Shown here one piece after another: positions 9,068-11,237 of a stretch of DNA of 64,000 nt. Below the pieces are notes generated by a model that searched no databases, was not told the DNA's origin, and worked only from the letters and a program-made list of their open reading frames with translations. Numbering within the stretch: position 1 is the stretch's first letter; each line of letters begins with the position of its first letter. This DNA comes from Kangiella geojedonensis (GTDB lineage Bacteria > Pseudomonadota > Gammaproteobacteria > Enterobacterales > Kangiellaceae). The translations under genes were made by a program, and so were the position numbers. The stretch covers positions 2,356,001-2,420,000 of the forward strand of contig NZ_CP010975.1 of NCBI RefSeq assembly GCF_000981765.1, given 5' to 3'.

Positions 9068-9937
9068 TTAACTCTCGTTTAAACTTTCGCCAAATCTACC
9101 ACGCTTAAAGTCATCAAAGGCTTGCATGATTTCTTCCTCACTATTCATGACAAATGGCCCCGCACCCACCACCGGCTCATTCAGTGGCTCCCCGCTTAAA
9201 ACCAATAATGTGCTGGGTGCGTCCGCCTCAATGATTAGATCAGAATTGTCGGCATCGAAAATCACTGTGTCGTTGAGCTGAAGCCCTTGTTGGTTGATGC
9301 TGACAACGCCCTTCAAAACCACCACAATCGCATTCCAGCCAGCTGGAATAGACAGTGCTTGTTGACTATTAGGTCGCATGGTTAAGTCCCAAACGTTTAA
9401 TGGTGAATAGGTTTTGGCAGGACCTTTTACTCCATTATATTCACCCGCAATCAGTCGCAGCTCGCCAGCTTCCAGTCCAAAAGTTGGGATTTCATCAGCC
9501 TTAATGGCTTGATAACCGGGTTCAACCATCTTGTGTTCTTTTGGTAAATTCACCCACAACTGCGCCATTTCCATCACCCCACCGCGTTCGGTAAAGTCTT
9601 GTGAATGGAATTCGTCATGCAAAATACCGCCTCCAGCGGTCATCCATTGCACATCACCGGGGAAGATAGTGCCGCCTTTGCCGGTTGAGTCACGGTGTGA
9701 CACCTCTCCTTGGTACACAATCGTCACCGTTTCAAAACCCCGATGTGGGTGTTCACCAACACCTCGTGGCGTACTGCTCGGCTCAAAATTCGCTGGCCCT
9801 GCATGATCCAACAATAAGAATGGGCTGATTTGTTGACCTTTCGAATGATAAGAAAATAGTGAGCGCACCGGGAATCCATCACCGACCCAATGGCCTTGAG
9901 GTGCTTTATAAATACCTTGTATCTTTTTCTGCGTCAT
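9068..9937 (-). CDS. Pirin family protein (bicupin)
   Basis: A 289-residue bicupin. The N-terminal cupin has the metal ligands: 'GEHPHRGFETVT' and 'GILHDEFHSQDF' give the three His and one Glu that bind Fe(II) in pirins; 'TAGGGILHDEF' is diagnostic. The C-terminal cupin lacks an obvious metal site. Bacterial pirins can be quercetinases or regulators of metabolic enzymes; the role here cannot be set. A GTG at 9961 is in frame, but GAGGA sits eight bases before the ATG at 9937, which is chosen. Confidence 0.93.
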   Translation of the reverse strand: MTQKKIQGIYKAPQGHWVGDGFPVRSLFSYHSKGQQISPFLLLDHAGPANFEPSSTPRGVGEHPHRGFETVTIVYQGEVSHRDSTGKGGTIFPGDVQWMTAGGGILHDEFHSQDFTERGGVMEMAQLWVNLPKEHKMVEPGYQAIKADEIPTFGLEAGELRLIAGEYNGVKGPAKTYSPLNVWDLTMRPNSQQALSIPAGWNAIVVVLKGVVSINQQGLQLNDTVIFDADNSDLIIEADAPSTLLVLSGEPLNEPVVGAGPFVMNSEEEIMQAFDDFKRGRFGESLNES

Positions 9938-10042
9938 AGCATCTATCCTCGAGCATTTCACTCAGTGATTGGACTCTTTTATAGGGGCGTCATAAAGCTA
10001 AATATTGATGCGGGTCTCACTTTTTTCAACTTTTCGCCAATC

Positions 10043-10086
10043 TTTAATGAGAATCGTTTGCATTTGAGAAATATTATCGGTATGAT
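10043..10086 (+). promoter_or_regulatory. Fur-box-overlapped sigma-70 promoter of orphan transcript
   Basis: TTTAATGAGAATCGTTTGC (10043-10061) matches 13 of 19 positions of the classical Fur box; the core AATGAGAATCGTTTGCATT is close to sites seen in other gammaproteobacteria. It overlaps a -35 TTGCAT (10058-10063), with an exact 17-base spacer to the -10 TATGAT (10081-10086). Fur-Fe would be expected to block polymerase here, giving transcription only when iron is short. The start would be near 10093. No protein gene follows on this strand before the terminator at 10265. Confidence 0.65.
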
Positions 10087-10092
10087 TCACTT

Positions 10093-10289
10093 CAAGGTCA
10101 GGGCACAAAGTCTCCAGCATTTTGCCCTGCAACGTAATTCGCTGTGATAGCTTAAGTAGTGTTTGTCGGATAGCCCCGCACCTCTACATACTACAAAAGG
10201 GCTGACACAGCGAAACCAGATTCCAACAATAATAAAACTGCTATCATAGGTCTCTTCACGCTATACCGCTCTTTTGGGCGGTTTTTTTT
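10093..10289 (+). ncRNA. Candidate iron-responsive small RNA
   Basis: A roughly 200-base unit lies between the promoter at 10058-10086 and a strong terminator ending at 10289, with no credible ORF in it and both flanking genes on the opposite strand. It can fold: AGGGCA with TGCCCT near the 5' end (about 10099-10127), then a long stem-loop with CGCTGTG (10140-10146) pairing with CACAGCG (10206-10212) and inside it AGCCC (10172-10176) with GGGCT (10199-10203). The apical loop exposes the C-rich, single-stranded CGCACCTCTACA, which could pair with purine-rich ribosome-binding sites. The layout matches RyhB/PrrF-like sRNAs functionally, though I see no sequence match to either. Confidence 0.55.
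10265..10289 (+). terminator. Intrinsic terminator of the orphan transcript
   Basis: ACCGCTC-tttt-GGGCGGT (7-bp stem, one T-G) is followed by eight T's. The reverse strand has no T-run after the hairpin, so it acts on plus-strand transcripts, where no protein gene lies upstream. Confidence 0.9.
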
Positions 10290-10355
10290 GCCCGTTATTT
10301 ATTGTCTATATGCGTGGCCATGTATTAGGTGTTTAGAATTTTTTAACACGTATGT

Positions 10356-11237
10356 TTAACCAATATGAAAAGTCTTCTTTTGCGACATGGCAAAAGCTTT
10401 TTTCTCGTCGTAGTAAGCGGCTTCATTAATAAAACTCATATAACAATCTTCGCCCTCGTAAAGTACTTCTTCGCCGTTAAAAAGACTAAATATTGGCTGA
10501 CCTGACCGTAATTTTGTGAAATCTTGATCTTGGATACTGTGGTGAATCATTCCAGAAATATCACCGTTAATATCAGTAGGCAAAAACATAACGTCGAAAT
10601 ACTGATAAACATCTATCGACTCAGATGGTTGAGGCAATTGATGCTGGTTATATTCGTTTAGAAACTTAAAGATAAGTTGCGTAGTTTCTTCCGTTTTATC
10701 AAACACATCCTGTCGTAACTGGCCTTGCGCCGTAGCACCAATTTCGACCAGCACATGCTGTGGAGCCACAGACATCAAAAAATGATGATCCAGCATTTTC
10801 TCTAACGTAATCGAGACGTTATCCATTCGTTGCTGTACATAATCAGCCAACATCAAATGGAAGCTATCGGTTTTAGTAAGCACCAGATTAACGCCCATAG
10901 GCGCAGTCGACGTATGGAGATCGATAATCATGTCTGTTCGGCTGCTTCCCTTAGGCCCAAGCTTTTGATTAATCTGCTTGGCCAGTTCATTCTCATGCCC
11001 AAACAAAGAGTTATCGTCCAGATCGGCCTGCTTAAAGCTGCGGTTTAAATCTCGATCGATGTATCGTCTATTAGCTCGCTGGGCTTCAGGATTAGCGGTG
11101 AATAATTCCACCTCAAAACTATGCTTTCCCAAAAGTTTTGGAAACTGACGATACTTATTGAGCAAGTAAATACCTGTCAATTCATTACCATGGGTACCGC
11201 CGACTAAAGCCACTTGCTTAATCGATTCATTCGACAT
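10356..11237 (-). CDS. Aspartoacylase family zinc hydrolase
   Basis: A 293-residue zinc-dependent amidohydrolase of the AspA/AstE family. Zinc ligands His16 and Glu19 are in 'GGTHGNE' and the third His in 'IIDLHTST' (about 109); 'DRDLNRSF' supplies the substrate-binding Arg-Asn pair, and 'VLVEIGATAQG' contains the probable catalytic Glu. Length and motifs fit aspartoacylase (N-acetyl-L-aspartate to aspartate plus acetate) better than succinylglutamate desuccinylase, and there is no arginine-catabolism gene nearby. The substrate is inferred only. Confidence 0.88.
   Translation of the reverse strand: MSNESIKQVALVGGTHGNELTGIYLLNKYRQFPKLLGKHSFEVELFTANPEAQRANRRYIDRDLNRSFKQADLDDNSLFGHENELAKQINQKLGPKGSSRTDMIIDLHTSTAPMGVNLVLTKTDSFHLMLADYVQQRMDNVSITLEKMLDHHFLMSVAPQHVLVEIGATAQGQLRQDVFDKTEETTQLIFKFLNEYNQHQLPQPSESIDVYQYFDVMFLPTDINGDISGMIHHSIQDQDFTKLRSGQPIFSLFNGEEVLYEGEDCYMSFINEAAYYDEKKAFAMSQKKTFHIG

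Follow-up and report, generated by a model that had tools for sequence, protein, structure and literature searches.

RyhB of E. coli and PrrF of Pseudomonas are Rfam families of Fur-repressed RNAs that spare iron. BrrF of Burkholderia, for which sdhC, fumA, acnM (2-methylisocitrate dehydratase) and iscS are reported or predicted targets, lacks a Fur box of its own, and its co-expression with the Fur-controlled hemP is presumed; pairing is mostly by the 5' end, for the most part away from the Shine-Dalgarno sequence, and the RNA shows no similarity to known Fur-regulated small RNAs (PMC7377471). HrrF of Haemophilus is a lineage-restricted Fur RNA dissimilar to the others, whose reported targets are genes of molybdate uptake and asparagine synthesis and nrdB, and not mainly Fe-S enzymes (PMC4144887). 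Iron-sparing small RNAs seem, from these four, to arise repeatedly with unrelated sequences, and the locus described here adds a case from a marine lineage, Kangiella, for which a literature search of limited extent found no small-RNA study. Computation on a 64-kb window (the whole stretch of Kangiella geojedonensis DNA that was analysed) and on related genomes recovers a conserved transcription unit with a Fur-type box, an invariant core, and complementary sites that are enriched among iron-protein genes and placed at their translation starts. We hold with good confidence that this unit (10043-10289) encodes, as a standalone gene, a Fur-repressed, trans-acting small RNA, whose 3' core would pair with the mRNAs of iron enzymes and thereby spare iron.

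The locus shares with RyhB and PrrF a Fur-type box over the promoter, an orphan intergenic gene, a single-stranded pairing region and predicted Fe-S or haem enzyme targets (sdh, fumA, the aconitase family and isc), but differs from them in that the Kangiella seed lies just before the terminator, that it is limited to part of Kangiella and that it matches no Rfam sequence or structure. Rfam covariance models gave no gathering-level match in the window except a tRNA, and no match to an iron-sRNA family in the interval 9900-10400 at E-values up to 10; this agrees with the preliminary description, which had taken the RNA to be unlike RyhB and PrrF in sequence and possibly a lineage-specific analogue of them. 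With BrrF it shares predicted targets, and two of the copies at another locus discussed below (G004 and G012) follow a haem receptor gene that has a Fur box, much as BrrF is associated with hemP, whereas pairing here would involve the 3' core at start sites and BrrF uses mostly its 5' end. HrrF is set apart by targets that are not mainly Fe-S enzymes, those predicted here being Fe-S or haem genes. Likened by function and not by sequence, the RNA resembles BrrF most closely among RyhB, PrrF and BrrF. Two features of the functional class of Fur-repressed, iron-sparing, trans-acting small RNAs are seen here: a Fur-type box that overlaps the promoter of the intergenic gene, and, by prediction, a conserved unpaired seed complementary to the ribosome-binding sites of iron-protein mRNAs. 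Given this predicted role and the lack of an Rfam family match, the Kangiella RNA is of the RyhB/PrrF/BrrF-like kind by function and of no named family by descent.

The features of the locus are collected in the table. Its outline had been drawn in the preliminary description as an orphan unit between two minus-strand genes, with a Fur-box-like sequence overlapping a TTGCAT-17-TATGAT promoter, a 7-bp hairpin and T-run at its end and no ORF inside, and all these elements are found: TTTAATGAGAATCGTTTGC (10043-10061) agrees with the E. coli Fur consensus GATAATGATAATCATTATC at 13 of 19 positions, the -35 (10058-10063) and -10 (10081-10086) elements are 17 nt apart, and direct reading of 10093-10289 reveals no ATG-initiated ORF. 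The start of the RNA is placed 7 nt past the -10 element, i.e. at 10093-10095.

Features of the small RNA locus in the 64-kb window (positions are those of the window)
Feature	Position	Strand	Remarks
Pirin-family gene	9068..9937	-	Pfam PF02678/PF05726; transcription directed away from the Fur box
Fur-type box TTTAATGAGAATCGTTTGCATTT	10043..10065	+	Overlaps the -35 element; 13/19 against the E. coli consensus; 18/20 against the genus-style box
Sigma-70-type promoter TTGCAT-17-TATGAT	10058..10086	+	Direct reading; GTATGAT invariant in 7/7 carriers
Predicted small RNA, ~195 nt	10093..10289	+	Promoter to terminator; ATG-free; kept as a unit
5' hairpin CAGGGCA...TGCCCTG	10099..10130	+	Some carriers only
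Main body stem-loop with C-rich loop	10138..10214	+	Outer stem TTCGCTG/CAGCGAA in 5/7 carriers
Unpaired A-rich stretch CCAACAATAATAAAACT, ARN-repeat pattern	10218..10237	+	In 7/7 carriers
Invariant seed block TGCTATCATAGGTCTCTTCACGCTATACCG; predicted main seed GGUCUCUUCAC at 10249-10259	10238..10267	+	Identical in 7/7 carriers
Intrinsic terminator ACCGCTCTTTTGGGCGGT and T-run, 7-bp hairpin	10265..10289	+	
AstE/AspA-family deacylase gene	10356..11237	-	Pfam PF24827/PF04952; convergent with the RNA

Taken by themselves the individual signals of the unit are weak, and it is conservation that raises them above chance: promoter-like pairs occur in the window at background level (5 found, 3.0 expected), and sites matching the Fur consensus at 13/19 or better number 16, where first-order Markov sequence would give about 8. 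The preliminary claim of a Fur box hence stands on other grounds than those first given, the 13/19 match being not significant alone and the genus-level evidence identifying a real Fur-type site. A genus-style box matches the unit at 18/20, the sole match above 15/20 in the window. With few changes the same 20-mer (AATGA[GT]AAT..TTTGCATTT) also precedes iscR, both in this genome and in others of Kangiella, and it recurs within the genus ahead of TonB receptor genes for haem or siderophores. Since the box is common to the unit, iscR and the receptor genes and is the only one at 18/20 in the window, and since the genome encodes, at ~188 kb, a Fur protein that scores above the cutoff of an equivalog profile, direct control of the unit by Fur is likely. 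A Fur-type box also precedes the isc operon of this genome (G000:C1:1063787) and of four other loci (L053, L054, L055 and L065), so iscS would be under both direct Fur control and that of the small RNA.

The whole unit occurs at the same pirin/astE locus in seven Kangiella genomes, namely that of the window and six others, four of which match records of Kangiella taiwanensis, K. shandongensis, K. spongicola (G008) and an uncultured Kangiella. In an alignment of the seven sequences hardly any change is seen in the Fur box, the -35 and -10 elements, the 30-nt 3' core or the terminator, whereas the remainder is divergent: the RNA body between promoter and 3' block is highly variable, rich in indels or missing between carriers. 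This pattern makes it scarcely credible that the transcript is the mRNA of a small protein: short GTG- or TTG-initiated frames are all that could be adduced for it, and against them stand the absence of any ATG, a middle part riddled with indels or lacking in some carriers, and an invariant block without a start codon. Another explanation is that the RNA or the box serves the neighbours, with Fur controlling the divergent pirin gene and the transcript arising as a by-product or antisense leader. A divergent pirin gene does adjoin the box in most carriers (it was found in 6/7 retrieved loci and not detected at that of G008), and astE adjoins the RNA in all seven; yet the RNA has a conserved terminator of its own ahead of astE, and its invariant core is unrelated to either neighbour and recurs at a locus without them, leaving this account very improbable. 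Some 105 nt (9938-10042) separate the Fur box from the start of the divergent pirin gene, which might be under the same control. In Kangiella without the RNA at this place, astE adjoins a tRNA-Phe-like gene and not pirin (L029, L030 and L032-L035).

A search of 84,980 species, each represented by one genome, found the exact 20-nt core in no genus but Kangiella, and it was not present in viral contigs either. Allowing one mismatch in a 14-nt core returned matches in other genera of the family, which resemble coding sequence, have no good Fur box and were set aside. The small RNA, as judged from its core, is thus lineage-specific, having been found so far only in part of Kangiella.

As to structure, the 5' hairpin has two pairs with a compensatory change and other pairs that are broken in some sequences. 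The central stem-loop, which had been proposed at 10140-10212, is indeed predicted in this genome (MFE z = -2.4), but it is not kept in two of the seven carriers, K. spongicola and G009, and its C-rich loop (CGCACCTCTACA) varies or is absent among carriers. RNAalifold on the seven sequences found almost no net covariation (0.12 kcal/mol), so that the body structure is without covariation support and the comparison of the stems across related genomes suggested in the preliminary description did not bear them out. With promoter and 3' block invariant, the body variable and the stem-loop lost in two carriers, selection appears to keep the former two and not the C-rich-loop hairpin. The A-rich stretch is present throughout, and its C/T changes in the seven carriers preserve an AAY rhythm; it is a possible contact for Hfq. 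The RNA thus combines a U-tract terminator with an ARN-like stretch; a tblastn search for hfq over about half of the genome gave no match, and neither hfq nor sodB was found in that part. The 3' seed block is unpaired in the centroid fold of 10214-10288.

Potential targets were ranked by comparing 0.8 Mb of this genome with the syntenic 0.8 Mb from one of the more divergent carriers of the same RNA, G009. This gave 611 ortholog pairs with start regions; pairing counted only where it fell at the same site in the two genomes, and was scored by the duplex energy of the invariant core. In all ~1.14 Mb of the 2.5-Mb genome was read, of which the ortholog ranking spanned ~0.8 Mb. The choice of start codons relied on agreement between orthologs and on the strength of the Shine-Dalgarno sequence. 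The iron-protein set comprised 32 genes (5% of the 611) for Fe-S, haem or other iron proteins or their assembly; it was assigned from the N-terminal protein sequences once the ranking had been looked at, and the top genes were afterwards profile-checked and target gene names verified with NCBIfam and Pfam. The top five by duplex energy include nqrD, etfQO, fumA and leuC, followed by iscS in sixth place, nqrA in 11th, thiC in 26th and sdhC in 39th; iron genes make up four of the top five and five of the top ten, which none of 30 shuffled cores matched. An independent, simpler helix score placed six iron genes in the top ten, equalled by 0/300 shuffles and by 4/300 when shuffling left the anti-Shine-Dalgarno octamer untouched. 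Elsewhere in the RNA, six segments including the C-rich loop gave at most two iron genes in the top ten, and the same holds for the reversed core and for the reverse complement of the core. Thus the core does rank Fe-S and haem genes first among the 611 start regions, as the early suggestion of iron-containing proteins as targets had foreseen.

Inspection of the sites showed that: 1) the fumA site, GAGAGACC, lies at the ribosome-binding site; 2) that of leuC, GUGAARAGACCAAAUGAGGCA, runs across the ribosome-binding site; 3) AAGAGACC occurs upstream of acnD and also at codons 4-6 of sdhC; 4) the nqrA site, GACCUAUGAU, covers the start codon; and 5) AGAGACC is found in the start regions of both genomes in only 4 of the 611 genes, three of which are acnD, fumA and sdhC. 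When the core was scored as 10238-10264, four of the five top genes were iron genes, as against none of five for the C-rich loop (p = 0.25). The preliminary description had assigned pairing to that loop, and a Fur-regulated RNA acting mainly through it could appeal to the predicted stem-loop and to the outer stem kept in five carriers; with the loop variable, the stem-loop missing in G008 and G009 and iron genes not enriched when the loop is taken as seed, we consider this quite improbable. The seed is likely to be the 3' core (10238-10267), which includes GGUCUCUUCAC.

One might also regard the core as a general anti-Shine-Dalgarno element in a Fur-regulated RNA, with the enrichment of iron genes arising from the conserved start regions of central metabolism. 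The core includes UCUCUU, and its UCUCU part matches any Shine-Dalgarno sequence; shuffled cores slightly favour iron genes, placing them in the top ten above chance (mean 1.3-1.9); and rlmE, aroK and a pilN-like gene, none of them iron genes, also score well. This is nevertheless an unlikely explanation, because shuffling so rarely gives six iron genes in the top ten, even with the anti-Shine-Dalgarno part fixed, and because the leuC, acnD and sdhC sites lie off the canonical Shine-Dalgarno position and are exact or near-exact matches. The cytochromes and Fe-S enzymes of the window itself, earlier named as candidate targets, did not hold up: the best pairing with a gene of the window (-17.3 kcal/mol) is weak and unconvincing and the functions are scattered, the good candidates being elsewhere in the chromosome. 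Only about half of the genome's letters having been read, the true regulon is probably larger than the genes listed here.

We therefore return to the iron-sparing RNA with a 3' seed, for which the following course of events is proposed. When iron is sufficient, Fur would occupy the box overlapping the -35 element and keep the RNA gene off; as iron falls, Fur would leave the box and an RNA of ~195 nt would be made. Its 5' part would fold into fast-evolving hairpins, and the unpaired 3' block before the terminator would pair with ribosome-binding sites and first codons of the mRNAs for class I fumarase, the isopropylmalate dehydratase LeuC, the methylisocitrate dehydratase AcnD and the succinate dehydrogenase subunit SdhC, and further for IscS, Na+-NQR and ETF-QO. 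Pairing at such positions is expected to repress rather than activate translation of these iron-using enzymes, so that iron would be spared.

A comparison of target sites with the presence of the RNA across the genus is consistent with this proposal for leuC, where the strength of the site follows the presence of the RNA: it scores between -20.5 and -28.8 kcal/mol in each of the seven carriers and likewise in G002 (an assembly 55% complete and without astE), and -12 to -16 kcal/mol in 12 of the 12 other genomes, all of which lack the RNA at astE. At iscS the carriers have a strong site, which matches in part (GUGAAGAGA) in the group of G004, G010, G012, G015, G016 and G017 and is weak in that of G003, G006, G011, G013 and G019. 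The remaining two sites are not diagnostic, since that of nqrA is kept nearly everywhere, to an equal degree even where the RNA was not found, and that of fumA is equally strong in five genomes without the RNA.

We searched the genomes lacking the astE-linked copy for the seed followed by a T-run, and recovered the core in three further Kangiella. In G004 (L290) and G012 (L289) it comprises 19 and 13 identical nt respectively, directly before a terminator, in the 3'UTR of a haem-receptor-like TonB gene that is preceded by a Fur-type box. In G016 a Fur box with TTGCAT-17-TATACT, the same promoter layout as in the window, is followed after ~80 nt by 16 identical nt of the core, again ahead of a terminator; these would belong to a standalone RNA of ~120 nt (L044 1500-1655; G016:C1 about 402,640-402,800). 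CTCTTCAC with a terminator in G003 (L288, ~1500), which follows a protein-coding frame and where no Fur box was seen, and a like arrangement in G011 (G011:C129:38707-38749) were judged unrelated. The core is absent from the 3' ends of distant haem-receptor paralogues in other Kangiella, and no such RNA accompanies the Fur-like boxes of G015 and G017. A DUF446 (YqcC-type) gene adjoins the copies in G016, G004 and G012, this site having been inspected in genomes other than G010, G015 and G017. The simplest reading is of one DUF446-side locus, at which a standalone gene turned into the 3'UTR of a Fur-controlled receptor gene inserted there, or the change ran the other way; the astE-linked copy of the window's lineage would be a separate one. 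The shared seed suggests common descent of the two loci, although their bodies do not align. Whether the seed is a portable module, the body around it having been replaced while the seed and its iron control stayed unchanged across settings, we put at about an even chance; if so, the interchange between promoter-driven and 3'UTR-derived iron-sparing RNAs would be directly observable within one genus. One seed in three genomic settings, with bodies rapidly exchanged, forms a rare natural series, by which the origin, movement and regulon retention of such regulators become testable through comparison within the genus.
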